Positions 4,101 through 64,000 of a stretch of DNA of 64,000 bases are shown one piece after another. The DNA comes from Ceratodon purpureus (lineage: Eukaryota; Streptophyta; Bryopsida; Pseudoditrichales; Ditrichaceae): NCBI GenBank assembly GCA_014871385.1, contig CM026426.1, positions 33,695,020 to 33,759,019 on the forward strand, in the 5' to 3' direction. Within the stretch, counting starts at the first letter, position 1, and each line of letters opens with the position of its first letter. The notes under the pieces are model-generated. The model had not been told where the DNA came from and searched no databases. It saw nothing but the letters and a program-made list of their open reading frames with translations. Position numbers and translations under genes: made by a program.

Positions 4101-4245
4101 CCCTGTAACTCCACTCCCTCGCTCTAGTTTCCTCCTCTCTCCATATCTCACAGTCAGCTCTATTCCCTCTATCATTCCAAAAAGTGACGTTTGGGTTTCC
4201 CTTTGGGTGGTAAGCAAACCCTAGATGTCCAACCTGGTTCGCCAT
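748..4245 (-). pseudogene. Third ORF of the retrotransposon, coiled-coil protein, interrupted
   Basis: A frame starting at ATG 4245 runs 927 codons to TAA at 1462-1464, then continues in the same frame through TGA (1231-1233) and TAG (1192-1194) to a stop at 748, inside the 3' LTR. The first 200 residues are a Gln/Glu/Arg-rich coiled coil built from repeats like LQLEEERRLRELEEERRRL. Around residues 470-700 there is a globular segment (WKAWRDLKDDHWAEKVSLGS onward) that resembles the plant-transposon domain found in Athila-type extra ORFs. A Lys/Arg-rich region and a second coiled coil follow. It overlaps the end of pol by 74 bp in another frame. The function of such ORFs is unknown; structural or envelope-like roles have been proposed for some. 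Confidence 0.75.
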
Positions 4246-7327: not shown

Positions 7328-7333
7328 GCAATA

Positions 7334-12766: not shown

Positions 12767-12782
12767 AATGCATGGTCGCCAA
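12767..12782 (-). other. Primer-binding site
   Basis: Read on the minus strand the LTR ends in TTAACA and is followed by TTGGCGACCATGC. TGG next to the LTR end is the usual start of a site complementary to a tRNA 3' CCA end. The tRNA would end in GGTCGCCA; which tRNA this is was not established. Confidence 0.6.
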
Positions 12783-21140: not shown

Positions 21141-21346
21141 TTGTTGTAGTAGGCTTGTGCAGGATTGTGTAGAGTTGTGTAGGCAGTTAAGTATGGGTGC
21201 GAATTTTTTTTGTACACTATGCTTTGTATCTTCAGATATACATACGTGGGCTCCTTTGGGTCTATGGTTTTTTCCTCTATACTCTAAATATTTTGTATGT
21301 ATTCCATCACGTGCCAAAACAACTCAACCAATCCTCTTATTCTAAG

Positions 21347-33854: not shown

Positions 33855-34441
33855 AGTCATCTCAGCAAAACATGGAGACCGAAGATGAAGGCAAGATTCC
33901 CAAAGAGACTGAGGTAAGTTAAATGATTATAATCCAATTTTTTGTAGAACTTCATTTCTGATGTTAAAGTATTTTAATTTTGCCTAAGTTTTGTGTCTCT
34001 AATTCTTTGAAGACTCTTACTAAAATTTCATTTCTCAGATTATAGGTTTGTTCGGACGCTCCCAAGATGTCTATAAATTCTCTTATCTTAGTGATCAATA
34101 TTTCGGACCTCTCAAACTCATACAATGAGCCATATTGTATGTGTGATTTTTTGAACTGTATAGGTTTAGGTACTGGATCTTTTGAGGTCCATTCTCTCTA
34201 GTACATGCCTACCTCCCCGGTGTATGAGCCAACGTCTCCAGGGTACATGCCTACGTCTCCAGGTCTGGGTACACCAACATTGTCTCCAAATCCTCCTGCT
34301 TCACCTTTGGTGATGAGGAGCCCAACTCATGTGGTATTTGCCTTCCCAGCAATACCACGACGGACTGCCCCAATCACAAGGCATATTTGGAGGGAGCACC
34401 GTCTGTGGACTAGTAGAGAGTCTAGAGATTACTATAGATGA
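33855..34441 (+). pseudogene. Decayed copy of the CTD-heptad gene
   Basis: Exon 33855-33913 ends KETE followed by GTAAGT, matching the intact gene's AETE exon. The second exon region from about 34060 reads VINISDLSNSY.EPYCMCD, then TAG (34199-34201) where the intact copy has Gln, then three heptads YMPTSPV, YEPTSPG and YMPTSPG, and the basic tail ending DYYR with TGA at 34439. The intact copy has two more heptads. It is followed by a decayed ParB/methyltransferase gene, the same order as at 48465-53210. Confidence 0.75.
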
Positions 34442-34605
34442 GCTCCCCGTAGATTGGCACGGAAATGATACTTAGTGCCTCGAATGAAATTTGAGCTGTG
34501 GTCTACTCTTTTATTCATGAGAAGATTTCTATGTAATTGACTAATAATTATATTTAGTTTCTTCAACGTTGAGTTTGATTATTAAATTGCATGGCTTTTG
34601 GCAGG

Positions 34606-34851
34606 CAGGGTTGTCATAACGGACGGACATGGGCAAAATTTCCGGACACGGACGGACGGACGGACGGACGGACCGGTCCGTCCGGGGTGAAAATCGGACA
34701 TATTCTATGAATATTCCTAATTTTTTCTCAAAAATGCTCGAATATGCTCGAATATGCTCGAATATTCTCTTATGGACCGGACATGACCCCTAACGGACGG
34801 ACAAGCGGACCGGACGGACGGTCCGGTCCTTATGTCCCATGAACAACCTTG
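34606..34851. mobile_element. hAT-type MITE 1
   Basis: Ends are CAGGGTTGTCATA and the complement of CAAGGTTGTTCAT. Flanking 8-mers TTGGCAGG (34598-34605) and TTGGTAGG (34852-34859) match at seven of eight bases, as expected of an aged 8-bp hAT duplication. The interior has a CGGA tetranucleotide run. It sits exactly at the splice acceptor of the decayed ParB-domain exon. Confidence 0.8.
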
Positions 34852-34898
34852 TTGGTAGGTAACTCAAACACAAGATGTGTTGCCAACATCGTCTTGTC

Positions 34899-35207
34899 CA
34901 TGGTTGTTCATAGGACCTCCCCGTCCAAAAGACCGTCCGGTCCGCTCGTCCGGTCCGCTCGTCCGGTCCGCTTGTCCGGTCCGCTTGTCCGTCCGTTAGG
35001 GGTCATGTCCGGTCCATAAGAGAATATTCGAGCATATTCAAGCATATTCGAGCATATTCGAGCATATTCGAGCATATTTGAGAAAAAATTAGGAATATTC
35101 ATAGAATATGTCCGATTTTCATCCGGGACCGACTAGTCTGTCCGTCCGTTCGTCCGTCCGACCGTGTCCGGAAATTTTGCCCATGTCCGTCCGTTATGAC
35201 AACCCTG
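34899..35207. mobile_element. hAT-type MITE 2
   Basis: Starts CATGGTTGTTCATAGG and ends with the complement of CAGGGTTGTCATAACGG. The flanks are a perfect 8-bp duplication, GTCTTGTC (34891-34898 and 35208-35215). Same family as MITE 1 but opposite orientation and only 47 bp away, so 34606-35207 can fold into a roughly 600-nt hairpin. Confidence 0.85.
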
Positions 35208-36949
35208 GTCTTGTCCTGCAGACTTGAAAAATGCTGTAGAAGGCGAATTGCTACATTGAACACAACATAAGGTTGACTCTAACTACGTTATGAACAGTGT
35301 TCGAATTCAACCCTTGAAGAAGTCTTGTTTGCTTGTCCCATTTTGAAGGATGATCTCAATGGCAAAAGTGAGACCAGTTGGCGAAATAAGCGTACAACAT
35401 CTAGAGAGGGAGTTCGTGAAGGGATATAGAGATGGGGATCGCATCATATACATTTCCATGTTCAACAACGAGGAGTTGTCATCGGATGTGAAGGCCGAGT
35501 AGAGCCCATGCTCGGAAAGGGCGAATCAAGCCTTTTGAAGACAAGCCCCAAGCAGACCCTGATCTAAAGAGATAATCTGGCAAGATGTTCTTTGTCTGGG
35601 AAGGTAACCATCAGCTATCCGCTTGGTTAAGACATATTAGCAATCATCATGCAGAGGATTCTGCATGGCACATCTCCGTGCATTGCATCATTTTAGACCC
35701 AGGCGGCCAAGTGGGCAATCTTCTTCATGCCATGGACAATATCTACTGGTAAGTATCTTTGTAGTTCTATTTCTCTAATCTTTTTTCGGGCATCCTTTTG
35801 TTTATCACATATTTTCTAAACATCTACTTATTGATCTTAGTCTACTGAAAATGACCACGTGAAGAGTAATCTTCTAGCCACACTGTTCCGCATCCGCTCT
35901 TTCGGTGTAATGAAGTTGGAAGAATTCAAAGATCTCCTAAGTCCAGAGGAGTACGATACCGGTATGAAGAACAAACACGCCAAAGACCGATGGTTTACCT
36001 TGACAACAAAGGTTTTCATTGCGTTCCTATACTGAGTGAGAATTACTTCCATGAATTCATTGATAACTTTGTTAAATGCCTTTTTTTAACTTATGAAGTT
36101 CAAATAGTTTGCAAATTGTATTGAATATATTCTCTTTCTATAGCGGGAGATTGTGGTCGCTTCGGATTAAGCCGCTAGGGCCTACATTAAGAATACTCCA
36201 AAAGAGGAACCATCTGGATCTGGAGTTTGGGATGCGATGACTTCGGCATCAAATAACATGGTCGCTGCCATTAAAAGGAAGGACTTGACCAAATATTTGG
36301 CTATTGCAAATCCAAAAAATGGTGAAGACTTTCTCGCGGAGGTGAGACCGTAACCACTTGTACTTAAGATACAATGATTTCATTTCATCATCATTCCAAG
36401 TATATAATTCTAACTACATTGTTCTCCTCGCAGATCAATTGGCATTTCAGTGAAATCTCCAAAACCTGAGATGACGTTGAATAAGCTACAGAAGATAGTT
36501 CCAGCGGGTGTGGATGCCAAATACAAAGCCCGTTGGTTGAGGCGGTGGAACTCTTCCCTGAATTTGAGGTTGTCTTATAGATTTCTACCACCAGAATTCA
36601 AAGAAGCCGACCTCAACCCTTAGTTGAACAAGGCTGCATTTTGGGTAGGGGTATAGTGCCCTCAAACTCCTTTGTGAATAATTGAAGTATTTTTCCTTTC
36701 ACTCAAATCATACTCGACTCTAATTGTTTCATTTGTTTCTTCTAGTTGGAGGAAGCCGTCATCAACGAGTTAGAGGATATATGCAAGGCAAAGAAGTTGA
36801 CCATCAACTGGAAGGCATCCCCAGATGTTCAGCGACCGGGCGCATATGTAGAGACCTGGCGTATTCTGTTATGGGAGAAGGAATTTCCTACGTTTCTCGG
36901 TAATAAGACTAAATTTTTTTTTGATAAGAAGTCCAACTTCACCAAATTC

Positions 36950-37685
36950 CTAAGTACACTGAGAAGCACAAGGTCCTGGCGCGCACAAAAAGACAAAAAG
37001 GAGGATCAGGGCTGCCCTTCTTCTTTTTATACCCTGCCCCAGCTCCAGCCGTTTGTAGCTCTTCATGATGGACGGTCGTAGCCTTTCATCAGTGGACGGT
37101 CACGACCCGCGGCGCTTTAATTGTCGCTGCCGCCTCTCCCGTGCAAATTATGGCTACCGGCTGTTGTCTTAAGTCTGATCGTGAATTGAATCGGTCTCGA
37201 TGCCTACCAAAGTCCAACCGGTTCTACTGGCTCGGATCAGTCACAGTAGCCCATCTGGTTCTTCATTTATTGAACCAACCGTCTTAGCCGGTTGTTATCT
37301 AGATCTAGTTAAGACATACATACTCCTACAATGTAATTTCTAATTTATTTTCATTTTTTTCACAGGAATCAGCCTTCCGGTGGGCCAACCGTAGAAATTG
37401 CTTTCCTCATGCTTCCAAGTGCGGAGCTTTGTACCCCTTCAAATGTTGAGGAGAATAGATACACTGGTCTGAGCCTTTCTGAATCCATGCAGCAAAGTAC
37501 TTCGGGAGATCCTGGACATGGATGGCACCTTTTGAAACAAGTTCCCTCTTGAAATACCTAATGGATGACAAATACAACATGTATTAGACTGGAAAAAATA
37601 AGGAGCATGGTTGAAAATGCAAAGGTTGTTGAGTTTTTAAACATACTGGTATGTAACCGGCTTGACAACCTCTGCCGGTCCCAGG
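36950..37685. other. Local inversion inside the pseudogene
   Basis: Plus-strand similarity ends in the codons for KKSNFTKF at 36950, and the directly following part of the same exon begins on the minus strand at 37685. Turning this 736-bp block round restores the intact gene's order. 37080-37330 inside the block is unrelated to the gene. Confidence 0.7.
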
Positions 37686-43193: not shown

Positions 43194-43603
43194 GGTGGAA
43201 ACTATTTACCTCGATTACAACAAAGCTACAGCAACCAGATCGACAACAAGGAGCGGCAGCAAGCTAGAAGTCTAAAGCAGAGCGGGTGATTGAAACAACT
43301 GTGGAAACAATGGTGGACACAGTTCAGAGCAAAGCAACACTAAATCTGGCGGGAATGGTTGATGTACCACAAAGAGGCCATGTTTTGAACCTTAAAAAAT
43401 TGGGGTTGGTACATTTAGATGATGGAAGCGCACAACGCAGCCGCCAACGAGATGGACTCGGCTTGAGACAGTCCTATGACCCCCGTAGACTTAGTGGGGC
43501 AGTCGTTGTCAATTAGGTGAATAGTACTGGGAGTAGCCTGTTGACTTTCATCCCCTTTCTTACGGCTTGTATAGAACAGTATTATACTTTGGTGTAAGCC
43601 TTT

Positions 43604-46535: not shown

Positions 46536-47639
46536 TTCAAGATAACATGAAGAACTATTGAATTCTCAACAGTATGAGCACTTCGAAACAAAAATGACAA
46601 CTAGGTGATAAAGCCGATGACTGAAAAGAATGATCAGGAGGTGAATTCAAACCGTGCTTGCTTTTTCAATTGCAAGATTGCTTCAGAAACCAACATGAAG
46701 TTCAAGCAAGACATCTACGTTCAAAGTAAAATGTGACCATGATATGTACCAAATCCGAGAATGGTGCTAAAATACTGAAGAGTCTCTGAAAACCCTACAT
46801 CAGTCAGAGGTAAAGAAACACCCGAGGGCCAAGATCATAGCAAAACTATTGAAACACTGGTAGACTGTCGGGGAAAGTTCGTACGTGAGCGGAGAGCGTA
46901 GAGCGGAGAGCGGTGAGCGCAGAATGGAGAGCACAGAATTCACAATTACGAAAATTTTCAAAAGCAAAGTAGACCCTATAACCGTGGAAAATTACTAAAT
47001 TAAGGCTTAATTGTGACACTTTTTTTAGAAAAAGAGTATATTACCGTGGAAATTAGGATTATCTCTGGTAAGAATTTTTTACGTTTGTTCTCAAAGATAC
47101 AAATTAGGGCTGATGTCATGCTGACGTCATGCATACATTCCTTTAGATTTGTCATCGGTTTAGGCAAGATACAATGATCAGGCGTTGAGTTTTAGATCAA
47201 ACAAATAATTCTTTCATAGGATTATGTAAATGCACAAGGGAAAAAACAAATTTGAAAGAACGTAAAGGAGGCAAGGTTTGAAAACTTCCTGGAATATTTC
47301 TAAATTCGTGTATATTATCTTAACTGCTGAAACCAAGATATACCTTGTCAGAGTCCTTGTCTTCATCGAAGATTACTCTCTCTTCCTAGGCAGCAAAGCA
47401 TCTTCATTTGAGTGATACAAGTAGGAGATTTTCATCATGAAACAACACTTGGTAAGCTGGGTTCTAGAGAAGGAGGTCACTCTTGGTTTCTTGAGCTTGT
47501 CTCTAGGAGGCGTATTAGGATAGTGACACAGACCTTGGCATTCTGTGCTGTATGCGAAGGTAGCGTAGGAGTTCGGGGATGTCAATCTGCAAGCTAGAGT
47601 GTAACGTTTGAAGACTACAAGAATTCAGTGTGTTGCGCG
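46536..47639. other. Spacer without supported gene
   Basis: 46880-46935 has GAGCGGAGAGCG-type short repeats. Nothing else recognised. Confidence 0.35.
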
Positions 47640-48011
47640 ATGCCGAAGGTGTGTAATGCGAGATCCAGGAGGACGAGAGCGGCTGTAGGTTTGCCCCCAA
47701 AGGCACCGGCGAGTTATGAGGAGCTGCGGCCGTGGCTGCTGGAGGTGGAGCGCGCCAGGGAACAAGGCATGGACCTGCCACCGTTTAGGCACATCGGAAG
47801 CCTCCATGTTGGTGAAGGTGAATGGCGTTGGACAGTGCTTTGTACCAATGAGCTTCTCCGTATTATGGAGTTGTCCCTAATCCCGTATCCCTTGCTATCG
47901 AACGTCGATGAGAATCCAGTTGTTCAGCTGCCCGAAGTGATCATATCGGATGGCGAAACTTGCTGGTTTGATATGGACAAGAGTTGGACTGTATATCCTC
48001 CGAAGGATTAG
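47640..48011 (+). CDS. Small hypothetical protein, 123 aa
   Basis: ATG 47640 to TAG 48009, one exon. Basic start (MPKVCNARSRRTRAAVG), a probable helix (YEELRPWLLEVERAREQG), then a mixed alpha/beta pattern (GEGEWRWTVLCTNELLRIME, ending FDMDKSWTVYPPKD). Composition is balanced and coding-like and there is no signal peptide. It converges on the ParB/methyltransferase-like gene, whose stop lies 450 bp away. No family recognised. Confidence 0.5.
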   Translation: MPKVCNARSRRTRAAVGLPPKAPASYEELRPWLLEVERAREQGMDLPPFRHIGSLHVGEGEWRWTVLCTNELLRIMELSLIPYPLLSNVDENPVVQLPEVIISDGETCWFDMDKSWTVYPPKD

Positions 48012-48464
48012 TACTGTGAAGTATAGCGGGGTGTTCGAATACAATCCTTAAGATTTAGGAATAAGACAACTAGAAACCAACTAAAAGAGATGGTCTTAAA
48101 AGTTCGTGGAATATTTCAGAGTTCGTGTAGAATAATGGAGTAGCAGAAACCAAGATGTACACCAAGTCAATAATAGGTAACATGGTTAGGAAATGTGGGA
48201 TTTTGAATGGTTAAAATATAAGTTACAGCGCAATTTAAATTTTGAGCATTTCTTTTGTAACATTTCATTCTTCATATTATATTCTGAGCATTACGGTTGT
48301 GACATTTCATCCTCTACATAGGAGGAGACGATTTGGAAATGAGAATCGTAACAAGTATAGATTCAGGGTAGTAGAGTAGACGAAGGATTACGCAATGAAC
48401 TCCAATTAAATCAAATCAAATCAAATCCAATGAAAACAATGAAAGACCGAAGCCTCCTTCAAAC
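48012..48464. other. Spacer between convergent genes
   Basis: AT-rich, with no coding features; presumably the 3' ends of both genes. Confidence 0.4.
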
Positions 48465-51400
48465 TCAGAACATGCTACCATCGCTACTTCCACTCTCAGA
48501 ACTAGATGACTCTGAATCTCCTTCTACCGCCTCGTCATCGACGAATAGAAAGGCCCTGGGATCAAAAGTACTTGGCCGACTAGGAACATATGTTAGGGCT
48601 CCAGATTGAAACGCCTGTGCTAAGTCCTCTGCGTAGTCCGGAAGTATGAAAGGCTGAATCGGGCTGGAATGAAGACGCCACGATGGAGTGGACACTGCTC
48701 TTGGCCCACGTGGCGGTGTTGCTGAAACTACTCTGCAATAGAGAACCGATTGTGGTTAGATAGAGTACGTAGAGCTGGAAAGAGAAGTAAGGATTCGATA
48801 ATTTGAACAAAGAATAGAAGACTTACACCACTTGTCAGGTCTTGCTCTCTTTGGAGGCGCTTCGCCTGCTGCTGCCGGCCTTGGATGTTTAGGAGGGCCC
48901 ATGGCGGATGGTTTGAGAAGGGCGTTGAATATGGCTTCGTCATCCTCAAAAGCGAGAATGTGACGACCAACAGCCTGAGCGGCCTTGATGGAGGCCCCTG
49001 AAACTCGGAAAGAAACAAAGAAATAAGAAACTGTGGGAAAAACGAGAGCAATAATTAAGCAGAGATATGTAAGAAGAGTTACCTGTCCCAGCATTCCAAT
49101 CAAGAACTATGTCGCCGGGCTTTGACAGCTCCTCAATTATGCCCTGCATCATCTCAGGGGATTTCTCCCTTGGGCCTCTCCACGGCACCTCCCCATTCAT
49201 GAGCTGCGAGTCCAGATCGGTGAGGTTGAAAATGGCATCACTCTCGGTAATGTTGAGGAACCCATGTATCAGATCTTCCTTCTTCGTCTGGAAGGAGAAA
49301 GTACTGCCACTACGAACGTAGACGCGAATCCAGAACCGCATAGTCTGCAGTCAAGCAAAAGTAGTGAATAGAATTAAGCGGAAGGGTTAACAGTAAGTAA
49401 AGAGTAGGGTATGTTTAGGAAAAGTACCAAGTTCTCGGGGTTCGTAGGAGAAGTGAGGCCGAGAACATTGACGCCCCACCAGTCCTTGAAGAGCACGTAG
49501 TCACCACCAGCAGCTTCTTCGTCGATATCCTTAGCCAGCTTCTGATCAGTGTTGTAGATGAGGCAGATGGCACCATCTTTCTGCAGGAAATCATCTGCAA
49601 AACGGAAGATGTCGTACAAATAATCCTTGTAGCGAGAGTTCCAAGGCGGAATACTCGTGGGGGGAACGGAAACGGATGGGACGGGAAGATTCTCAGGGAT
49701 GTCGGCAATGATCAAGTCGACTCCCAGATGGTTCTCTTGTTTGGAGCGGTCCGGAACTTCGTTTTCGCGGCCTGCTCCAAACTTGAGCAAACAAGAAAGC
49801 AGAGTTAGTAACTACATAGCGAGTAGAGGTGGCAGAATCCATTAAATGTCAAAATATAGGAACAAACCTTGCGAATGAAGTCTTGAGTCTTGATCCAATC
49901 CGGGTCGCCACCTTTTCTCTCCTGTCTCCTATTTCGCCGTAACATGGAATCCACAGATGAGTTGAAGACGGAAACATGTGTGGAAATCGAAGCTCCAGCG
50001 GAAGAAGTTGTTTGAGGATATATTTTGGCCTTCCTCTGCTGAAGGAGACCTCTGGTGATCTCCGAAGCACTGATCGATGAAGGAGCCGGCGAAGAAGCTG
50101 GAGAAGGGTTGGTAACAACAACACCCGGAGACGGCTCTGGTGCCTTCTCAGCTGGCGCGGAAGACTCCGCACCAGTTTGCTGTGATGCCTCTGACCGAGA
50201 ACGCAGAGATTTCAGCCGCCTTCCTCTCCCTCTCTTCGGTGGTGGAGCAGAAGACTGATCCTGCTCTCCTTCACGACCTTCTGCATCATCCACGGAGTCC
50301 TCCACCACAACCGTACCCCCATCGTGCAGCATCTTGACTTCCGCCTCGGAGTCAATAGTGAAACCACCAATACAATCAAGATACCAGCATCCAGCATCCA
50401 GATGAGCAGGTTTGTACCTTTTTATCTGCTGAGGAGAGTACATACACTCGTCCGAGGATGTCTGCGTCCAAAGCTTGAAGTACTTGGGGAGGTGCTGAAC
50501 GCTGATGGCCCCCTTCAGAACAAGCTCTCGCTTGAAGTACCTATGGGAAGACAAGAAGGAGGTAAGTATAAGAAACAATTACAATGAAAACTATGAAATG
50601 GAAATGAGATTAAGTAAGGTAATGTACCGGTAAGTAACTCGCTTGACAACTTGAGCGGTTCCCGGGAATTTAGCGAAGTTGGACTTCTTGTCGAAGTGCT
50701 TCTCAGCTTTTTTTCCAATGAACGTAGGGAAGGCCTTGTCCCACAAGAGAATACGTGAACTTTCGACAAAATCGCCCGGCTGTTGGACATCAGGAAATGC
50801 CATCCAATTGATATCGAGGTTCTCAGACTTGAATACGTCCTCGACTTCGTGGATGACGGCTTCCTCCAACTGTAATACAAAATTCATATGAGTAGCATCG
50901 AAGAATGAATATGGTATAAATTTAAAGGAACAAGGAATTGGAATGGATTATTTATGAAAATTACCCCAGCCCAGAACGAAGCTTTGTTCAACCATGGGTC
51001 GAATTCGGTGTCCTTGAATTCAGATGGCAGAAATCTGTAAGACGTTCGAGCACTCGGGGATGAGTTCCACCACTTCAACCAACGAGCCTTGTATTTGGCC
51101 TCAACGGCCGCAGGAACAATCTTCTGAAGCTTATCCACTGACATCTCAGGCTTATTGTTGAGACTGAAATGGCGATTAATCTGCAAGAAGCACCGAAGTT
51201 TGAAAAAGATAAATACAGAAATTATGGAAGTCATGGGAAACAGTGAATTGAACCATGATCAGTGAGTCACCTCGTTGAGGAAGTCGTCACCATTCTTGGG
51301 ATTTGCAATGGCCAAGTACTTGGTGAAGTCCTTCTTCTTGATGGCTTCGACCATTCTCTCTGATGCCTCATTCATGACATCCCAAACTGCACTTGCAGAC

Positions 51401-52418
51401 TGCTCATCCTCGGGTTTCTTCATGCGGTAGGCATTGGCTGCTTCATCGGAGGCCGCAGCGAGTTCCCGCTGTAGAAAGAGAATTCAGACTTAGGAAATTT
51501 CATGAGTATTGAATAATAAGAAGCAAATAGAGAGAGGAGGTAGGACTTACTCGGTACAAAAATGCGATGAAAATTTTAGTTGTCAAGGGAAACCAGGAGG
51601 GATTAGGTGGCTTGTTCTTCAAACATGCGTCATACTCTTCAGGACTGAGGAGGTCTTTGAATTCCTCCAGCTTCATAATTCCGAAAGAGCGGATTCGAAA
51701 TAGTTTTGCAGGGAGATTGCTCTTGACGTGGTCATTCTCAGTCGACCTGAAAATGAACCAAAATCCGTATGATGAATAAAAGAGATGAGATAAAGTAACA
51801 AAAGGAAAACAGGAAAAAAGAAACAAGTACTTACCAGTTGATGTCATGCATTGCGTGAAGAAGATTGCCAACATGGCCACGGGGATCGAGTACTATGCAA
51901 TTCACAGATATGTGCCATGACGGGTCGTCTGCATGATGCTTGTTGATATGACGAAGCCATGCTGAGAGGCGATGGTTACCTTCCCAGACAAAAAACATCT
52001 TCCCCGAGAATTGCGACCAGTCCTCGTCACTTAGAAGCTCAGATTCAAATGCATCATTCGCGTCCCTCCACAATGGGCTCCATTTAGCCATGACCTCATC
52101 CGTAACATCTCGTGTCTGCTCTTTGTTGTTGTACATGGAGACGTACATGACGCGGTCGCCATCTCTATACCCCTTGACGAACTCCCGCTCCAAATGCTGC
52201 ACACCCACTTCGCCCACTGGTCTGACCTTTGCCATTGGGATCATCCTGCACAGGGGCACCGACATTCGGGACTTCTGCGATGGCTTGATCCTGAGCTTGT
52301 TGATGACGGCGTTGGTGTCCACCTTGTATTTGGTTTGATGTTCCAATTCCCCTTCTGTGGCAGTCTTCAAGTTTAACGGACAAGATGGTTTCACCAACAC
52401 ATCTTGTGTTTGCGTAAC
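48465..52418 (-). CDS. ParB/Srx-like domain plus DNA-methyltransferase-like protein, ten exons
   Basis: Exons, all with GT-AG borders and agreeing phases: 52418-51835, 51746-51551, 51468-51271, 51180-50965, 50869-50628, 50540-49868, 49781-49428, 49344-49083, 48997-48827 and 48730-48465, giving 1053 residues without a stop. Near the N terminus, MAKVRPVGEVGVQHLEREFV and VWEGNHRLSAWLRHI match the ParB N-terminal fold (sulfiredoxin-like), whose signature is dG-HR-xA. The middle is unfamiliar, with a Ser/Pro/Arg-rich linker (exon 6). The C-terminal 350 residues look like an amino-methyltransferase in permuted order: LIIADIPENLPVPS (motif IV-like), then PREKSPEMMQGIIEELSKPG, VLDWNAGTGASIKAA (motif I) and GRHILAFEDDEAIFNALL. 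The motif IV position reads DIPE, not DPPY, so catalysis is uncertain. The acidic tail ends SSESGSSDGSMF. The true start may be in exon 1 or upstream. Confidence 0.75.
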
Positions 52419-52563
52419 CTGCCAGAAGGTACGCAAATTAGGAGAACAAGCACAATCGAAGAAAGTCATGCAAAGTTGACAAGTATGTAAAAGAAAGTAA
52501 CGATATATCTTCATACTGTCATCTCTCTTTTAACAACTCAATCATCATCTGTGATTGATAAAA

Positions 52564-53210
52564 CTATCTACGTGAGGATCGACTATAGTACTCCTTAGAC
52601 TGTCTACAGTTCCAGTGACGGCGCCTCCTCCAAAATCGCCTGGTCTGTTGGACAGGGCACGGCAAAATAGCCGGCAGAGCAAAGACGACATGGGCTGGCC
52701 TCCTGACTCTAATCGGCGAGGAAGGAGAGGGTGGAGACATCGGCGGGGAGCCCTGTGGAGGAGACGTGGGCATATAGCCCGGGGAGGTTGGCTCATAAAC
52801 TGGGGATGTAGGCATGTACACTGGAGAGGTAGGCATGTACACTGGCGAGGTAGGCATGTACTGAGGAGAGTGGACCTCGAGAGGTCCACTTTCCACACCT
52901 ACAGGGTTGGCTACATCACAGGTACAATAAGGCTGATCAAATGAATCCGATAGATCGGAAACGTTGATCACAGAAATGGGAGAGGTGGCGGACATCTCAG
53001 GAGCATCGGATGATACCTAGAGTAGGAGAAATGAAGAGAGGATTAACTTCCATAATTAAAAGAGTAGGAAACGAAGATGTGTATGAGTCGAATAGAAATC
53101 AAATTCATAAACATAAGAAAACAATAGAAATTGAAAATTGAATGAAATACCTCAGTTTCTGCTGGCGTCGGGTCTTGACGTTCGCTCCCCAGATGATCTC
53201 CATCAGAGTC
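52564..53210 (-). CDS. Protein with RNA polymerase II CTD-like heptads
   Basis: Exon 53210-53151 (ends DPTPAETE) joins exon 53016-52564 in phase. After an acidic stretch (SDLSDSFDQPYCTCD) come five contiguous heptads: YMPTSPV three times, YEPTSPG, YMPTSPP, then a Pro/Ser-rich segment and a basic Arg/Trp-rich tail (FWRRRRHW) ending at TAG 52564. The RNA polymerase II CTD consensus is YSPTSPS; here Tyr1, Pro3, Thr4, Ser5 and Pro6 are kept while positions 2 and 7 are not Ser. This suggests Ser5-Pro phosphorylation mimicry, an inference. Its stop codon lies about 145 bp upstream of the first ParB-gene exon on the same strand; no donor in proper phase lies before it, so the two seem to be separate proteins. 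The 5' end was not located. Confidence 0.7.
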
Positions 53211-53934
53211 CTTAATCATAAACAATGTTATAAATATTAGAAAAAACAGGAACTATGAAGAAACAAACCAGAACCTCGACAAGGCTCCCAAAAAAACCTT
53301 AAGAACTCATCAGAACTCATCAAGACTTTTACCATTTAATTAAAATTATTTTATCAACCAAGCATTCACTTTACACGTTATGGAACCAAAAACAAAAGCA
53401 AAATAAAAATCAGAATCAACAAATCCCCTGATGTGTCGGAACTACAATTTAGAGTGAGCCTGCCGTGCATCATGCATCTCAAATGCTTGCCGCCGTCTTG
53501 GATTCCTGGACTACTCTGCCAGCACATATTCGTAATTTTACGCCTGGAAAGTTTGTTTCTCTTGAGCAGGGTTCCATTTCAATCATGTCATGCCCGAAAT
53601 ATAATACACAGGAACCAAATGCGGCACCAATTCACTTGAATAATGTTCAGCAGACATATCCATCAAAATTGCAGTAAATGAACTGGGTCACCAAGCACCG
53701 TAAGCATTCACGAAAAGAAGAGGATAAGCATCAGACAGAACCGCAGGCATCTCCTAGAAACAATCTTCAGTAAAACACTCCATCTCAATTCAACACTGGC
53801 CATGTGAATGTCTTGAGCATGCATGTCTTCATCGGAGGTACAAGAAGCAACACGATCAATCTCCCTAAATCCTACTCACAAGTCATGGAAAGCTTCATAA
53901 ACTAACTTAATCTAGATTCGGCTTAAATGGAAAA
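53211..53934. other. Spacer upstream of the CTD-heptad gene
   Basis: May hold missing 5' exons or the promoter; none could be identified. Confidence 0.3.
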
Positions 53935-56900
53935 TCAAAGAATTAAAATTAAAAAAAAAAAAAAAACGCTAAAATCCCCAAAGCCTTCCCCACCCTCCCA
54001 GCCTACTGTCGTTGACGACAGTAGGTTTGGGTATTTTTTAAATGTTCAAAAATTATAAAAAAGCCATTGAAAATTGAATAATGTTTAAAACAAATTCAGA
54101 TTTTGTGAGCAAAACGCAATTCACATAACACCAAAAATCAAAGAATTGAAATAAAAAAAAAAAAACGCTCAAATCCCCAAAGCCTTCCCCACCCTCCCAG
54201 CCTACTGTCGTTGACGACAGTAGGTTTGGGTATTTTTTAAATGTTCAAAAATTATAAAAAAGCCATTGAAAATTGAATAATGTATAAAACAAATTCAGAT
54301 TTTGTGAGCAAAACGCAATTCACATAACACCAAAAATCAAAGAATTGAAATAAAAAAAAAAAAAAACGCTCAAATCCCCAAAGCCTTCCCCACCCTCCCA
54401 GCCTACTGTCGTTGACGACAGTAGGTTTGGGTATTTTTTAAATGTTCAAAAATTATAAAAAAGCCATTGAAAATTGAATAATGTATAAAACAAATTCAGA
54501 TTTTGTGAGCAAAACTCAATTCACATAACACCAAAAATCAAAGAATTGAAATAAAAAAAAAAAAAAAACGCTCAAATCTCCAAAGCCTTCCCCACCCTCC
54601 CAGCCTACTGTCGTTGACGACAGTAGGTTTGGGTATTTTTTAAATGTTCAAAAATTATAAAAAAGCCATTGAAAATTGAATAATGTATAAAACAAATTCA
54701 GATTTTGTGAGCAAAACTCAATTCACATAACACCAAAAATCAAAGAATTGAAATAAAAAAAAAAAAAAAACGCTCAAATCTCCAAAGCCTTCCCCACCCT
54801 CCCAGCCTACTGTCGTTGACGACAGTAGGTTTGGGTATTTTTTAAATGTTCAAAAATTATAAAAAAGCCATTGAAAATTGAATAATGTTTAAAACAAATT
54901 CAGATTTTGTGAGCAAAACGCAATTCACATAACACCAAAAATCAAAGAATTGAAATAAAAAAAAAAAAAACGCTCAAATCCCCAAAGCCTTCCCCACCCT
55001 CCCAGCCTACTGTCGTTGACGACAGTAGGTTTGGGTATTTTTTAAATGTTCAAAAATTATAAAAAAGCCATTGAAAATTGAATAATGTATAAAACAAATT
55101 CAGATTTTGTGAGCAAAACTCAATTCACATAACACCAAAAATCAAAGAATTGAAATAAAAAAAAAAAAAAACGCTCAAATCTCCAAAGCCTTCCCCACCC
55201 TCCCAGCCTACTGTCGTTGACGACAGTAGGTTTGGGTATTTTTTAAATGTTCAAAAATTATAAAAAAGCCATTGAAAATTGAATAATGTTTAAAACAAAT
55301 TCAGATTTTGTGAGCAAAACGCAATTCACATAACACCAAAAATCAAAGAATTGAAATAAAAAAAAAAAAACGCTCAAATCCCCAAAGCCTTCCCCACCCT
55401 CCCAGCCTACTGTCGTTGACGACAGTAGGTTTGGGTATTTTTTAAATGTTCAAAAATTATAAAAAAGCCATTGAAAATTGAATAATGTATAAAACAAATT
55501 CAGATTTTGTGAGCAAAACGCAATTCACATAACACCAAAAATCAAAGAATTGAAATAAAAAAAAAAAAAAAACGCTCAAATCCCCAAAGCCTTCCCCACC
55601 CTCCCAGCCTACTGTCGTTGACGACAGTAGGTTTGGGTATTTTTTAAATGTTCAAAAATTATAAAAAAGCCATTGAAAATTGAATAATGTATAAAACAAA
55701 TTCAGATTTTGTGAGCAAAACTCAATTCACATAACACCAAAAATCAAAGAATTGAAATAAAAAAAAAAAAAACGCTCAAATCTCCAAAGCCTTCCCCACC
55801 CTCCCAGCCTACTGTCGTTGACGACAGTAGGTTTGGGTATTTTTTAAATGTTCAAAAATTATAAAAAAGCCATTGAAAATTGAATAATGTATAAAACAAA
55901 TTCAGATTTTGTGAGCAAAACTCAATTCACATAACACCAAAAATCAAAGAATTGAAATAAATAAAAAAAAAAACGCTCAAATCTCCAAAGCCTTCCCCAC
56001 CCTCCCAGCCTACTGTCGTTGACGACAGTAGGTTTGGGTATTTTTTAAATGTTCAAAAATTATAAAAAAGCCATTGAAAATTGAATAATGTTTAAAACAA
56101 ATTCAGATTTTGTGAGCAAAACGCAATTCACATAACACCAAAAATCAAAGAATTGAAATAAAAAAAAAAAAAAACGCTCAAATCCCCAAAGCCTTCCCCA
56201 CCCTCCCAGCCTACTGTCGTTGACGACAGTAGGTTTGGGTATTTTTTAAATGTTCAAAAATTATAAAAAAGCCATTGAAAATTGAATAATGTATAAAACA
56301 AATTCAGATTTTGTGAGCAAAACTCAATTCACATAACACCAAAAATCAAAGAATTGAAATAAAAAAAAAAAAACGCTCAAATCTCCAAAGCCTTCCCCAC
56401 CCTCCCAGCCTACTGTCGTTGACGACAGTAGGTTTGGGTATTTTTTAAATGTTCAAAAATTATAAAAAAGCCATTGAAAATTGAATAATGTTTAAAACAA
56501 ATTCAGATTTTGTGAGCAAAACGCAATTCACATAACACCAAAAATCAAAGAATTGAAATAAAAAAAAAAAAAACGCTCAAATCCCCAAAGCCTTCCCCAC
56601 CCTCCCAGCCTACTGTCGTTGACGACAGTAGGTTTGGGTATTTTTTAAATGTTCAAAAATTATAAAAAAGCCATTGAAAATTGAATAATGTTTAAAACAA
56701 ATTCAGATTTTGTGAGCAAAACGCAATTCACATAACACCAAAAATCAAAGAATTGAAATAAAAAAAAAAAAAACGCTCAAATCCCCAAAGCCTTCCCCAC
56801 CCTCCCAGCCTACTGTCGTTGACGACAGTAGGTTTGGGTATTTTTTAAATGTTCAAAAATTATAAAAAAGCCATTGAAAATTGAATAATGTATAAAACAA

Positions 56901-58300
56901 ATTCAGATTTTGTGAGCAAAACTCAATTCACATAACACCAAAAATCAAAGAATTGAAATAAATAAAAAAAAAACGCTCAAATCTCCAAAGCCTTCCCCAC
57001 CCTCCCAGCCTACTGTCGTTGACGACAGTAGGTTTGGGTATTTTTTAAATGTTCAAAAATTATAAAAAAGCCATTGAAAATTGAATAATGTTTAAAACAA
57101 ATTCAGATTTTGTGAGCAAAACGCAATTCACATAACACCAAAAATCAAAGAATTGAAATAAAAAAAAAAAAAAAACGCTCAAATCCCCAAAGCCTTCCCC
57201 ACCCTCCCAGCCTACTGTCGTTGACGACAGTAGGTTTGGGTATTTTTTAAATGTTCAAAAATTATAAAAAAGCCATTGAAAATTGAATAATGTATAAAAC
57301 AAATTCAGATTTTGTGAGCAAAACTCAATTCACATAACACCAAAAATCAAAGAATTGAAATAAAAAAAAAAAAACGCTCAAATCTCCAAAGCCTTCCCCA
57401 CCCTCCCAGCCTACTGTCGTTGACGACAGTAGGTTTGGGTATTTTTTAAATGTTCAAAAATTATAAAAAAGCCATTGAAAATTGAATAATGTTTAAAACA
57501 AATTCAGATTTTGTGAGCAAAACGCAAGTCACATAACACCAAAAATCAAAGAATTGAAATAAAGAAAAAAAAAAACGCTCAAATCCCCAAAGCCTTCCCC
57601 ACCTCCCAGCCTACTGTCGTTGACGACAGTAGGTTTGGGTATTTTTTAAATGTTCAAAAATTATAAAAAAGCCATTGAAAATTGAATAATGTTTAAAACA
57701 AATTCAGATTTTGTGAGCAAAACGCAATTCACATAACACCAAAAATCAAAGAATTGAAATAAAAAAAAAAAAAAACGCTCAAATCTCCAAAGCCTTCCCC
57801 ACCCTCCCAGCCTACTGTCGTTGACGACAGTAGGTTTGGGTATTTTTTAAATGTTCAAAAATTATAAAAAAGCCATTGAAAATTGAATAATGTTTAAAAC
57901 AAATTCAGATTTTGTGAGCAAAACGCAATTCACATAACACCAAAAATCAAAGAATTGAAATAAAAAAAAAAAAAAACGCTCAAATCCCCAAAGCCTTCCC
58001 CACCCTCCCAGCCTACTGTCGTTGACGACAGTAGGTTTGGGTATTTTTTAAATGTTCAAAAATTTTAAAAAAGCCATTGAAAATTGAATAATGTATAAAA
58101 CAAATTCAGATTTTGTGAGCAAAACTCAATTCACATAACACCAAAAATCAAAGAATTGAAATAAAAAAAAAAAAACGCTCTAATCTCCTAAGCCTTCCTC
58201 ACCCTCCCAGCCTACTGTCGTTGACGACAGTAGGTTTGGGTATTTTTTAAATGTTCAAAAATTATAAAAAAGCCATTGAAAATTGAATAATGTATAAAAT
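53935..58300. repeat. Satellite of 22 units of about 200 bp with a hairpin
   Basis: Units begin their hairpin core at 54002, 54201, 54402, 54604, 54806, 55006, 55207 and so on to 58211. Each carries perfect 10-bp inverted arms CCTACTGTCG/CGACAGTAGG around a TTGA loop, the block CCTTCCCCACCCTCCCAG, and an A tract of varying length that accounts for most period differences. Units are otherwise almost identical, with three variable positions (TGTTTA/TGTATA, ACGC/ACTC, CCCC/CTCC). The last unit is more diverged, as expected at an array edge. Confidence 0.95.
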
Positions 58301-59365
58301 ATATATGTGCTCCGGAGTAACTTGAATCTCTCGCTGTTTGAACTAAAGCTTCATGTCTGAGAATTTGAATTTAAAGCGCTTCTGATAGTAGTCACGGTAG
58401 TGCAAGAGTTTAGTTCAGCTACCCCCAAAGAGCCGGCCGGTGAAGCTTCAAACAACCGTGGACAGCTAGCAGAGAATACGGAGTCAGTTCGCTATGAAAT
58501 TGTTGCAACAGAACTAGAACCCAAACCCAAACTCGCAGCTGTATGCTGGGAGTTGTACTCACACAGCTATTCTCAGCTCTCAAGTCCCGCCTTATCAGCT
58601 CTAAGTAACCTTAACCTTATCGTTATCTTCCGGCAGCTGGAGCGGAAGGGATGGTTGGAGCACGCTAGGTCAATCTGGAGGCCGAGTGTCTTATCTTCCA
58701 ACTCCATCTTCCTTGAGAATCGACCCACTCAACTATATATTAGCTTCTTTCGTGGATAAGTTTTTCGCAGCAACGAGACCAACGACGTCGTGGTTCGTGG
58801 AAATCTACAACGAGAGAACCGAGCGTAGGTAGATCCAAGATGCTGTCAAAGTTGAGAGCAATCATCGAAAGTGACGATTCAGTCTAGCAGCACTCTCACC
58901 AATACAAACATACTCCCACGCGCACGACAACAAGTTATAGTCGACATACTCTGCATAATATCTCACTGCAAGGACCTGGACCGACGACGCGCCGGTCACT
59001 GCAGCTGCAGCTACCCTGCCTACGACAAAAATGACCACGACACACTCAAATCCTATAAGAAATTTTCTCCAAAGTCCAGCCCAAGGCAGTGCCTCGCAAT
59101 CCAAAGAGCAAGCGATCAGTTAATCCAAGCATGACTGGCAGCTTAAAAGGAGCGACATCCAACTCCGATAATGCAATCAACCCACAACCAACCCACAAAC
59201 CAGAACCCGCAAACCACAACCCAGAAACCCACAACCCACAAACCAAAAGACCACAACCCATTTCCCCAGATCGTACGAACACAATTCATTTCTCCAAATA
59301 TTCTATGCCGTACTGTTGACTAAACCCCAAGTTCCGTACAACACCCCATTCAAAAACCACATCAT
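58301..59365. other. Region after the satellite
   Basis: A 119-codon plus frame (58400-58759) has no recognisable motif. 59170-59250 holds ACCCACAACC-type short repeats. No supported gene. Confidence 0.35.
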
Positions 59366-60364
59366 TCAAACACGTGGTACTGTCAACCTCCTCTGGAGCT
59401 CATGATTCCGTACCTGGTCTCCATCTTCGGGGTCTTCGTCTCCATCGTCCCCGTCCGTCCTCTCCTGATCCTCACTCGCATCCCCAACCAGCTCGGGCTG
59501 GTCCTGTCCACCTCCCCCCACGTCCGCCTCCATCTCGACAGGCGCCTGCCCCGCGGCCTCTGCGTCGACTTGCTCCTCCTCTCCTCCCCTCATCTGATCA
59601 AACCTTGCTGCCATTGCCTCCCCCCCTTCCCCTGCACTTAGAATTCCACTTCTTGCTCTCCTCGCAATGAGTCGCAGCTGCTCGATGTCGCACCCCTCCT
59701 GAGCAACTGAAACCCTTCTTCGAACATCGACTTCCCCTATCCTTTCAATACCCTACCCACACCATTTAACATAAACTGCGTGATAATTGAGGGACCTCAC
59801 GGAGTTGCCTAATTTAAATTGAGTTGACACTGAATTGAGTTGAAACTAAATTATTGAATTAATATTAAGAACTCCCAACATTTAAGATGGTTTAGTAAAA
59901 CTAACCTCGTCGGAGATGAAACGTAGATCTGATTGAGAATTTGACTCCCCCGTCAAAGAGTCATTAAATCTGATAGACGGATGCGGTGACTCTACTCTTT
60001 GACTACAATTAAAAACTAATTCTTCCGTCATGGCCTCACCTTGAACTCCACTTAAGAGTGTCTGTTGTCCCTCCTCCTGATTCTCGACGACGGTATTCCC
60101 TATAAACTCCTCTTCCTCCTCCACAATAGAGTCTAGAATGAGTTTACGAATGCTACAGAACTTTAAAGCTACAGGCAAACCTGATCCTCTCGTTTTCACA
60201 GGTGCACTCACATGGTCACGTTGAAATTCTACCTTCTTACGTGACTCTCTCCTCTTCCTCGCTCTTCTATCCGTAAAATCTGTAACACCTCGTTTTCGTC
60301 TAGGTTTAGGAGTGACATAGGTGGAGGGAGATGGCCCTTCACTCTGCTTCATGTGTCTTACCAA
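59366..60364 (-). CDS. Two-exon gene of unknown function
   Basis: Exon 60364-59906 (153 codons) ends FISDE before GTTAGT; exon 59698-59366 resumes in phase with EGCDIEQLRLIARRARSG and ends at a stop at 59366. The N-terminal part is strongly basic (KPRRKRG, RRARKRRESRKK), suggesting a nuclear protein. The block GSGLPVALKFCSIRKLILDS followed by EEEEEF is shared with the fragment at 31767-32058. Exon 2 is very acidic (DGDDGDEDPEDGDQ). It is divergent from the transposase-like gene at 60894, about 530 bp away, and may be its partner. The acceptor choice rests on phase only. No family recognised. Confidence 0.55.
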
Positions 60365-60893
60365 AGGACTGACTCTCTCACAAAAAGACTCTCTGAAGAA
60401 CTTCCTGCCCGCTTAAATACCTATAACGAACAACTATTTGGATACAACCCTAAATTGATATAGCATCTTAACACCATACACATTTTATACACTCTTTATA
60501 TTAAGAGTTTCCATAACAGTTCTATTCTAAAGTGTAGTTTAAAATATTATTCTTTAAATATAAAGAATAAATTCAAGCACACAAAAAATTAGAAGATTAG
60601 AATCAAGCACTTGAAAGCATGCTCCTTTTTATATTCATTGTTTTAAATGTAGAATTTAAAAGACGGCTCAATCCAATCTTACCAAACTTCATAACTAATA
60701 GACTCTGCGCCACGATTGAAATTATTAAAGCAGATTTATTAATATCTTACCTGCTATTCTTCGGCCAGCAAAAAGTCACATTCCAAATAGTTAGCGCCGT
60801 CCCTCTTAAATCATACATTCGTTACGTAACAGAATGAATCATTCTCCACCTGTTCACATGGACATTCCGACCTGAATATAATGATCAACAGCG
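60365..60893. other. Divergent intergenic region
   Basis: AT-rich; could hold promoters for both flanking genes. No defined element seen. Confidence 0.35.
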
Positions 60894-63800
60894 ATGCATC
60901 ATTCCTCTCACTTTGCTCTTGCAATATTGCTTCGCCAGTACAGTCACACTTCTCTCTTCTTGCCTGAGTTACCTGCGATCATGGGGATGGTCTGTCTGTA
61001 TGCCCAAGGCATGGGCATCCCTTTTAGGTTTCGCGTAGATGACGATGGTCTAGGTACAGTCTCCTCACTTCGCCTGAGTCTCAGATTCCACTTCCGTGAG
61101 GATACCATCAGTATAGAGGAGGAGATCTTTGATGACGTTACTGCCGAGGTTATCCACACCCTCGGGCAACCTTCAGTGAGAGATGAGAACAACATGTTGC
61201 AGTGGAGACTCCTCCCTGGATCCTATAGAGTCTATGGTCTTACTGATTCTCTTATGGCTGCATCCACTGAGATCCTCACCCCCCGTCGCTCTTCTACTTG
61301 CACAATTCAGACTCCCTTACCTCGTGATGTCAAAGTCAAAGTCGAGCCTGGTATCGAAACTTCAGATGTAGAGAAACCTCCTCCGACCGTCATATCTCTC
61401 TCTTCTGATGACGAAGTCAGTCCCGTCAAGTTGGTGCCTAAGGTCCACGCAGATGCTCCTCCTTCCAATGTGTCTCCTCCATTGTCCCAGGTCACAGTTA
61501 GCATTGTCCCCCTCCTTCAACAGCTTGCTAAGACGCGTGGGTCAAAAAACATTTTGAAAAAGATAGACTATTCCACTATTACACACGAGAGAGTTGAGTA
61601 CTTGCCTGCAAAGTTTGATGGTCCGGTTCTTTTTGAGTTCCCACCAGCTGCTGCAGGATCCTCTAAGCTCGCCGCCAAGTCTATGCAGGGAATGGACAAA
61701 CGATACGACGGACACTTGTGGACCAAGACCATCACAACAAACATCAAAAACGACTTCGGACTCTCTTTTCGAAGTTCCAACTGCGTCGGATGGCTGCGTT
61801 GCACCAACGAGGAGTGTGACTTCCTGAAGCGTGTTCCCAAGATCTTCGAGGTTAACGAGACTGAGTTCGAAGGCTGTACCCTGCAAGCTTTTGTCATGGA
61901 CCAGCCTCCTCCATCTGAGTCCACGCTAGTGTGCAAGGTATGTAAAGAACCTCCATCATGTGTAGCTACATGCGAGGCTAAGATTTATTATGTTGTGGGC
62001 AAACCGACTCAGACTAGAGCTTGTATTCACATAGGAACACATGATCATCCAGTGAAAGTTGGAGACTACAGAGACTCTAAAGCAGAGATTAGTAGCTTAA
62101 TAGAAGAGCAGGTAGAGATGAACAACAAAGCCACAAAGAGCGCCGTTGTCCTGGAGGCGAGCAAACTCCTCATTGGGAGCTACCTTCTACAGCCCGAGGA
62201 TGCTCCACCGAGGAAGCTGACGATGGAGGAGCAGGTTCCTGTTCTGGATCGATGCAAAGACATGGCGTCGCCCAACATCCGCAACAAAGTCGCCACCTTC
62301 AAAAAATTCAAAAGGTACGGAATCATGGACGGTATCACCAAGCTACGTGGTAATAGTCTCTGGGCGTATGTCCAGGAGAATAGGTTTCCTGGACAGGGAT
62401 CTATGCGTGACAAAGTCTTCGTCTTCAAGATGTCGGAGGTCGCGCCCGGCAGTGGTGTCGACTTGGTCAGCCGTATGCAAGCTGGTGGCGACTTGGAGAA
62501 CGCATGGATCATGTTCGACCATGTCAAACGCGTCAAAGACTGGTCGACGATGGCGTGCCATGTGTACGACGCCACCTACTGCCGCGTGATGACAATCGCC
62601 ACTTGCGACATGCAGTCCGAGGACACGGACGCCCAGCTCGTCTTCTGGAAAAACTTGAACCTGGTCATGGAGATCAATGGCGTTGCAGCGCCGAACTTCA
62701 AGGGGTTCATGGCGGATAACGCACAGGCGAATTGGAATGCAGTGCGAATCCTTTACGGCAATGGCAACAAAGAGGACCCAATGGAGGACCGGGAGAGGTC
62801 GTGCTTGTTCCACTGGACTCAGAACATGGTGGCGTATACGCAGAAGCACTTCCCCGAAGAACTCTGGGAACAGCACAAGAAGATGTGCACTCAGTACAAG
62901 AATGCGACCACCATGGCAGATGCGGAAACTCTGTACCACGCGTTGCGAGCCTCGTGGGCATCCACCGGGGTCGTTGGCGAAAGCGGGCTCATCAAACTCG
63001 ATCAGTGGCTATCATTCTGGCACCACCGCTTCCGCCAGTGGGGGGATTCATGACCGAGGTATTATCTCTGCACTCTGTTTTCATGTTTTTGATTCTAGTT
63101 TCCTAGCCCTAACCTACAAAATTGTAATCGGTGAATCTAACTTCACCTACTGCCAAATCTGCAGAAATTCACAAAAGAAGAACTCACAGAGATGCCCACC
63201 TGTAACCTCGCCGAAACAGTTCACAACAAGTGGTTCCAAGCTTCAGGAAACAACGGGAACGACCTCTACGTTGCTACCGTGGACGATTTCGTTCGGGCTT
63301 TTCTACAGGTTGTCAACTACTACCAGTTCCTCAAAGGTGACGTCGGCGGAACAGGACCATCCAAGAAGGAACTCAGGCTCCGGATGGCTGAACGCAACGC
63401 GAAGAAATGGGGAAATCCTACACTGCTCGACAAGCCCATGCTCGATATGCCAGGCGCCGATGAGTTCTGCACCCGTCAGCCTATCATGCCTGGAGCGGAA
63501 GTCTTCGGTTCACAGAAGCGAAAAGCCGACGTTCTTATCGGAGCTGACGAGGAGTCTCATCGCCCGGACAAAACAAACTTCTCACGCCCAAGAGGCCCAA
63601 GACGTGCCGTTAGGGCTCGCCCTATGCAGATGCCTGTCATTGTGGAAGACGACTCCGAACACGACCCCGAGGTAGAAGGTACCCAATCTCCTGCCCAGGT
63701 AGTTGATTCCCCTTTACCTTCACCAGTGAACAAGGGCGGCATTCGCCATGTCAACGCGGTTGAAGAAACTAAGGTGGACGTGAAGGAGTGGCACATTTCG

Positions 63801-64000
63801 AGACTTCACAAACTTTCTGCGAAGTGCTGCTGGGCCCAAAGAGCTGAAACGAAGAAGAAGTGCACTGAGAGAATTGTCAGGGGGCCCCATTGCACAGCTG
63901 CCCCGACCTACACTGGACTGTGGACTAACTATCGCAGGAACCTAGTCGAGAAGACAGAGTTCTTCTTCTGCTCTGATGATATTGAGCGCTGCGTGAAAGG
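60894..64000 (+). CDS. DDE/MULE-like transposase-related protein, cut by window end
   Basis: Exon 1 from ATG 60894 (or 60981) reads 719 codons. The N-terminal third includes an acidic SLSSDDE motif. The middle has a zinc-binding-like segment (CTNEECDFLKR, CKVCKEPPSC) and ACIHIGTHDHPVKVGDYRD. The C-terminal half resembles MULE-type transposase cores common in plant genomes: MTIATCDMQSED, GFMADNAQANWNAV and SCLFHWTQN as candidate catalytic stretches, then LIKLDQWLSFWHHRFRQW. Just after, at a run of six G (63040-63045), the frame runs into TGA. One more G would lead to donor GAG|GTATT and, in phase, to the exon at 63165 (KFTKEELTEMPTCNLAETVH), which is open to the window end and has further cysteines (KCCWAQRAETKKKC). 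Host gene or transposon gene cannot be settled. Confidence 0.65.

Follow-up and report, generated by a model that had tools for sequence, protein, structure and literature searches.

A candidate self-recognition protein and its adjoining palindromic array in a putatively MULE-like transposon of the moss Ceratodon purpureus

The 64,000-bp stretch of Ceratodon purpureus contig CM026426.1 analysed here (the window; positions are counted from its first letter) contains all but the last 2341 bp of a 19,472-bp DNA transposon, which runs from 46870 to 66341. A spliced minus-strand gene of this element combines an exon with a ParB-like motif and a C-terminal methyltransferase-like domain, and upstream of the gene lies a tandem array with a palindrome in its units. 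With a slightly better than even probability, the gene product is a self-recognition protein of a Mutator-like element (MULE)-like transposon, which would bind the palindrome of its own array while its methyltransferase-like domain would alter the state of the element.

The limits of the element are set by homology to other genomic copies, which begins and ends abruptly at 46870 and 66341. Perfect 10-bp duplications flank all three copies that were compared over both of their ends (the window copy, c01 of 15,889 bp, and c08 of 16,283 bp), and the ends of the element form terminal inverted repeats.

46870..64000 in the window, minus strand: copy of the DNA transposon, given in the orientation of the ParB-motif/methyltransferase gene (copy comparison, inverted ends, and duplication)
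46860..46869, no strand: 10-bp target-site duplication GACAGTCTAC, with the second copy just past 66341 (end comparison)
46870..46929, no strand: terminal inverted repeat of ~60 bp, with its partner from 66341 downwards (alignment of both ends)
60885..64000, plus strand: candidate transposase gene of the element, on the opposite strand (open frames)

The first-pass annotation, which missed both this setting and a decayed relative of the gene at 34.0-37.6 kb, had presented a plant gene; the gene is instead cargo of a large, many-copy DNA transposon. A 17-base pattern for VWEGNH occurs at 597 genomic sites (295 + 302) in 362,488,568 bases, and the reversed pattern at 1 + 4. Target-site duplications of MULEs measure 8-11 bp. 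The 10-bp duplication, the inverted ends, the long opposite-strand frame, and a SWIM-like zinc motif together suggest that the element is MULE-like. The candidate transposase consists of open frames at 60885-63050, 63141-64295 (spanning the window end), and 64299-64655 (past the window), the last of which contains the weak SWIM-like motif (SWIM E 0.2, below the cut-off); no Pfam transposase domain was matched by its 690-aa frame, even at E <= 10.

Twelve copies were compared (the window copy, c00-c03, c04-first, c04-second, and c05-c09), drawn from ten motif sites with 10 kb on each side and four more stretches. Seven have type-A ParB exons with array units of 200-213 bp, and five (c01, c04-second, c06, c07, and c09) have type-B ParB exons with 171-bp GC-rich units. 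In c04 (contig C1, ~12,146,000-12,163,000), the end of a type-A element abuts the interior of a type-B element, ~1.2 kb inside, probably as a nested insertion.

As proposed in the first-pass annotation, ten exons with gt..ag sites join in phase from 52418 down to 48465, giving 1050 residues and a stop. Its coordinates and its permuted motif order were also right: VWEGNH at residue 144 is followed by DIPE at 730, KSPEMM at 882, DWNAGTG at 903, and FEDDEA at 925. The proposed frame holds with an alternative last junction, as the simplest version brings a TGA into frame, whereas donor 48827 with acceptor 48721 keeps the frame open. Its completeness does not hold: a start codon is missing from the ten-exon model, and when ten copies are aligned, an additional coding exon is seen 5' of it. 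The model is incomplete at this end, with the predicted start codon located further upstream, perhaps beyond the tandem array, as read by eye.

53151..53210, minus strand: probable additional coding exon, preceded by an acceptor of its own (ten-copy alignment, limits by eye)
51835..52418, minus strand: exon with the ParB-like motif VWEGNHRLSAW (splice model, conserved in copies, dN/dS)
51551..51746, minus strand: exon (splice model)
51271..51468, minus strand: exon (splice model)
50965..51180, minus strand: exon (splice model)
50628..50869, minus strand: exon (splice model)
49868..50540, minus strand: exon, basic low-complexity linker (splice model)
49428..49781, minus strand: exon with the methyltransferase motif IV position, DIPE (splice model, copies, hhalign)
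49083..49344, minus strand: exon encoding KSPEMM and the first part of the S-adenosylmethionine (SAM)-binding motif DWNAGTG (splice model, Pfam, copies, hhalign)
48827..48997, minus strand: exon finishing the SAM-binding region, GASIKAAQAVGRHILAFEDDEAIF (splice model, Pfam, copies, hhalign)
48465..48721, minus strand: last exon and stop (splice model)

The same exons were found again in other genomic copies, and the ratio of nonsynonymous to synonymous substitution rates (dN/dS) of the ParB-motif exon is low, which argues that the spliced gene is real rather than a product of chance. This exon is strongly constrained: among the 21 of 45 pairs computed, dN/dS lies between 0.09 and 0.15 in 13 of 14 between-type pairs (dS 1.37-2.28; one pair is saturated) and between 0.08 and 0.34 in the seven within-type pairs.

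The C-terminal half is, as had been predicted from the motif order, a true amino-methyltransferase domain of the permuted beta class (PF01555). The whole protein matches PF01555 with E 3e-8 (34.3 bits, the curated cut-off being 26.7; E 1.6e-9 for the domain alone), methyltransferases in PHROGs match the same half (best E 3.3e-10), and a PDB sequence search with the C-terminal part retrieved DpnA-like and CcrM structures (E 0.002-0.007). Comparison of the three moss types with six phage methyltransferases by hhalign gave a probability of 97.4 (E 1.1e-11, 185 columns) and placed DIPE on DPPY, while the ParB-motif exon, used as a control against the same six enzymes, gave 0.6%. Motif IV precedes motif I, and the whole domain is alignable in this permuted order. 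The SAM-binding GTG is kept in all 12 copies together with the next helix and strand, and stops occur in exon 7 of c06 and exon 9 of c05. The catalytic motif of permuted N4C/N6A methyltransferases has the consensus (D/N/S)PP(Y/F/W). None of the 12 copies conforms to it: motif IV reads D(I/V)PE throughout, with the first proline and the aromatic residue of DPPY replaced by I/V and E, which makes catalysis doubtful and bears out the caution over DIPE in the first-pass annotation. As for relatives, the phage enzymes that tblastn of the methyltransferase part retrieved are all distant (identity of about 23-45% among the rows listed), and a phage origin by close similarity was rejected on this result. 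The six phage relatives examined are separate coding sequences of 666-843 bp, and viral-contig scans, one per protein half, confirmed no relative.

All 12 copies have a tandem array upstream of the ParB-motif exon.

53931..58299, no strand: tandem array of 21.8 units of 200 bp with 22 exact CCTACTGTCGTCAACGACAGTAGG, a candidate binding site (repeat finder, counts)

The sequence CCTACTGTCGTCAACGACAGTAGG is a 24-bp palindrome with 11-bp arms around CA. It is present in nearly every unit of five type-A arrays, where the numbers of exact sites per units are 22/21.8 in the window copy, 12/11.7 in c08 (two arrays), 20/21.7 in c02, 8/10.5 in c03, and 8/8.9 in c04-first; across the 12 copies, it is exact in five, imperfect in two, and absent in five. 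Among five consensuses (the window copy, the two of c08, c02, and c04-first), aligned by anchoring on the palindrome core, the palindrome is identical in 240 of 240 comparisons, against 55% elsewhere in the unit (1829 comparisons); the repeat finder gave the same palindrome independently. Genome-wide, the 24-mer has 1706 exact sites (758 + 948) and its reversed control none. The first 100 sites listed form 12 clusters, each of which lies upstream of a ParB-motif site on the coding strand of the latter, at 1.47-1.62 kb in 11 cases and 5.4 kb in one; the chance expectation for such a position is about 1% per cluster. No site with <=6 mismatches was found outside the array in the window copy, c08, or c02 (the far end of c02 excluded). 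The array of c00 contains versions with 4-6 mismatches, and five 5-mismatch versions lie just beyond its called limits, in step with the array. A coding role of the 171-bp arrays was considered and rejected, as their open frames differ among copies and c06 has none.

The copies also differ in how their parts are combined. The transposase-side upstream stretch is mostly 92-95% identical between types (82% for c06 and the window copy), and the ParB-methyltransferase side about 70%. Array type matches ParB-exon type in all 12 copies and methyltransferase type in nine, c05 (84-85% in exons 7-9) being counted as methyltransferase type A. In c09, a type-B array and ParB exon are combined with type-A methyltransferase exons, and c00 and c04-first join a type-A array and ParB exon to a third methyltransferase type. 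As a sign of a cognate pair, the agreement of array and ParB exon is suggestive, not proof. A more far-reaching proposal, possible though somewhat short of even probability, is that a plant transposon has built a ParB-parS-like self-recognition system, in which a parS-like array and a cognate ParB-like/degenerate methyltransferase protein are paired, array and ParB exon are swapped together as a single module, and one genome harbours several mutually distinct specificities.

In the self-recognition explanation, the N-terminal ParB-like domain would bind the palindrome in the array upstream of its own gene, in cis as well as in the other copies. The permuted methyltransferase domain at the C-terminus, with its SAM-binding region kept and D(I/V)PE in place of DPPY, would be held at the array, where it might change the element's epigenetic or protein state; such a domain is less likely to serve as a classical DNA methylase than as a SAM-/DNA-binding module or a barrier to silencing by the host. 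Several observations, beginning with the ParB-like half, weigh against this explanation. The ParB-motif exon matched no ParB-named family in Pfam, PHROGs, or NCBIfam, and a genome search with PF02195 gave nothing at E <= 0.001, although 10 of 14 control genomes match. Comparison of seven phage partition ParBs with seven moss exons by hhalign reached 2%, with another ParB region aligned, and single-sequence structure models (mean predicted local distance difference test, pLDDT, 37 and 42) are too poor to judge the fold. Beyond this half, methyltransferase exon 7 is less constrained than the ParB-motif exon (dN/dS 0.30-0.62 in 15 of 18 computed pairs, with extremes of 0.12 and 1.06). Over all eight array consensuses, with c03, c00, and c05 added, the palindrome is 90% identical against 54% elsewhere; an exact palindrome is missing from two of the seven type-A copies (c00 and c05), and the five type-B copies of the 12 have no such palindrome in their GC-rich units, only a common GCCATGGC core. 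Finally, array and ParB exon adjoin, and linkage alone may explain their agreement in type.

Further searches with the N-terminal part also gave no ParB match: a fold search with the first of the low-pLDDT models, itself too poor to be decisive, gave no match at E <= 0.001, a PDB sequence search with the N-terminal exon gave nothing ParB-like, and the ParB-motif exon had no match at E <= 10 in phages (phages were searched, plasmids not). A weak match to SatS in NCBIfam (best E 0.0024, three of seven members; for member 1, 13.5 bits where the cut-off is 700) was set aside as chance. With these results, the first-pass assignment to ParB/Srx stays putative. A signature of the G-x-H-R type in a strand-helix context is typical of ParB/Srx, and a ParB/Srx fold would show the strand/helix order seen in the poor models. 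The aligned copies carry VWEGNHR or VWDGNHR, a largely circular observation, as all but the relative adjoining c02 were fetched by the motif. The case for ParB identity is thin, and consists of the GNHR signature, the strand/helix order of these models, and the adjacent palindromic array.

Other explanations assign the protein or the array a different role. The domain might still be an active writer that methylates the DNA of its own element, as N4-methylcytosine or N6-methyladenine; the SAM-binding GTG of all 12 copies, the coding constraint, the alignability to phage enzymes of active type, and the bdelloid N4CMT, a PF01555 enzyme reported as active in a eukaryote in the part of the source used here (PMC8885841), are in favour of such a role, which is nevertheless unlikely given that the first proline and the aromatic residue of DPPY are replaced in every copy. 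The protein could alternatively bind the internal repeats to aid the transposase, its methyltransferase fold being only a DNA clamp. Its gene is indeed encoded opposite the candidate transposase in a large element whose arrays are internal; however, the window array lies about 8.0 kb and 7.1 kb from the element ends, near which no palindrome was found in the window copy, and this role appears decidedly improbable. A similarly small probability is given to a passive satellite, i.e., an array merely amplified beside the gene, with a palindrome unrelated to the protein. Physical linkage and the different units of type B, c00, and c05 would fit such a satellite, whereas the identity of the palindrome in five arrays against 55% for the rest of the unit, the 22 exact sites in 21.8 window units, and the presence of an array in 12 of 12 copies would not. 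A single-copy or domesticated plant gene, for which the intact spliced frame and the old family indicated by the 27-40% identical relative adjoining c02 could be cited, is hardly credible, being contradicted by the terminal repeats, the target-site duplication, and the 597 motif sites. Binding of the array by the transposon's own cargo protein is the preferred explanation.

The element and its surroundings contain further features.

52567..53016, minus strand: conserved exon further upstream that contains YMPTSP heptads and ends at an in-frame stop (alignment of ten copies)
47598..48011, plus strand: small open reading frame of 137 codons, stop to stop, near the element end (also open in copy c02)
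34027..36973, plus strand: decayed relative of the gene, with stops; a further exon piece is inverted at 37410-37559 (window comparison)

The terminal stop of the YMPTSP exon is common to all ten aligned copies, c00 and c06 having an internal stop as well, and the number of heptads varies among copies. The YMPTSP/YMPTSPV heptads resemble RNA polymerase II C-terminal repeats (PF05001, E 8.7e-4, 19.9 bits, below the cut-off of 20.3). Joining this exon to the ParB-motif exon was rejected, as no canonical frame-fitting junction was seen by eye and the terminal stop recurs in every aligned copy; perhaps it is an alternative terminal exon. In the decayed relative at 34.0-37.6 kb, no methyltransferase part was found, and a 600-bp self-complementary fold-back (75.6%, 34606-35207) is inserted at the start of its ParB-motif exon. 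The relative adjoining c02 (L014:5883-9130, minus strand) has 27-40% identity and the same exon order; no methyltransferase part was found in the stretch examined.

Outside the element, positions 1-13926 are occupied by a long terminal repeat retrotransposon, Ty3/gypsy-like by eye, with end repeats at 1-1124 and 12802-13926 (99.3% identical) and gag-pol-like minus-strand frames at 4841-10582. A Pre-SET domain (PF05033, E 2.3e-11) at 21191-21898 probably belongs to a SUVH-like histone methyltransferase gene. The frames at 17019-17849 and 27877-28902 look related by eye (FAENY and HDSLFVQHC motifs), have no Pfam match, and possibly represent another transposase; their interpretation as Sola-like transposases of the element was dropped, as both lie outside it. 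Near the end of a 546-codon frame at 41565-43205 lies a RING-like cluster of cysteines, which PF13639 matches only at E 10.

Among known systems, the layout recalls bacterial plasmid partition. In the F plasmid, the ParB-like gene sopB adjoins sopC, a tandem array in which each unit contains a palindrome, and sopB is also present in the annotation of N15. SopB-sopC and ParB-parS resemble the moss arrangement in the gene for a ParB-like protein adjoining such an array; the moss gene differs in being eukaryotic and spliced, in its methyltransferase domain, and in showing no homology by hhalign. A ParA-like gene was not noticed in the element, in which no dedicated search was made. A ParB-like domain fused to an adenine methylase is described for Bacillus cereus Bce_0392; this protein and the phage polyvalent-protein ParB-like DNases are prokaryotic, and nicking activity is reported in the relevant part of that source (PMC5512222). 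As presented in the portion of PMC8885841 consulted, bdelloid N4CMT shares with the moss protein a permuted PF01555 methyltransferase in a eukaryote and a link to transposons, but it belongs to the host, has a chromodomain, and marks transposons, whereas the moss gene is transposon cargo.

The closest published proteins are algal. The first-pass annotation knew of no ParB-methyltransferase pairing in plants; this stands for land plants, as neither such a case nor a palindromic target array was noticed in the open-access literature searched, but not for algae, from whose transposons such proteins are already published (PMC12477816). According to the consulted sections of that report, the algal proteins likewise have about 1100 residues, with a ParB-like part and an N4C/N6A-type methyltransferase, and are encoded in a ~20-kb DNA transposon opposite the transposase (in the moss, a candidate transposase). 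The moss element differs in its 10-bp duplication and MULE-like features, as opposed to Sola1, in D(I/V)PE, and in the palindromic array beside the gene, of which the same sections make no mention for the algal system, the two being compared by description only (PMC12477816). The Ectocarpus authors suggest, in the part drawn on here, active methylation of the element's own DNA; a self-binding or marking role has been suggested for published transposon-borne ParB-methyltransferases, and the consulted passages contain no test of it. The MULE-like moss element and its palindromic array would extend these algal cases.

For a moss protein that most likely binds its own array, the best-studied parallel is VANC of the Arabidopsis VANDAL elements, which, in the sections consulted, binds short tandem-repeat motifs within its own family, with DNA methylation being lost as a result (PMC5735166). 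Both proteins are transposon-encoded, have short motifs in the tandem repeats of their own element, and belong to families with different motifs. Binding and hypomethylation are demonstrated for VANC, whereas they would be expected of the moss protein by likeness of function and layout, and those sections mention no methyltransferase domain for VANC (PMC5735166). With its defined candidate site, naturally occurring variants of site and protein, and a recombinant, the high-copy moss family is suited to a simple binding test, and its gene and palindrome array make it possible to examine concretely how mobile DNA might mark itself. If the explanation is true, mosses would possess a counterpart of VANC that serves for anti-silencing or self-marking and is assembled from bacterial partition and modification parts.

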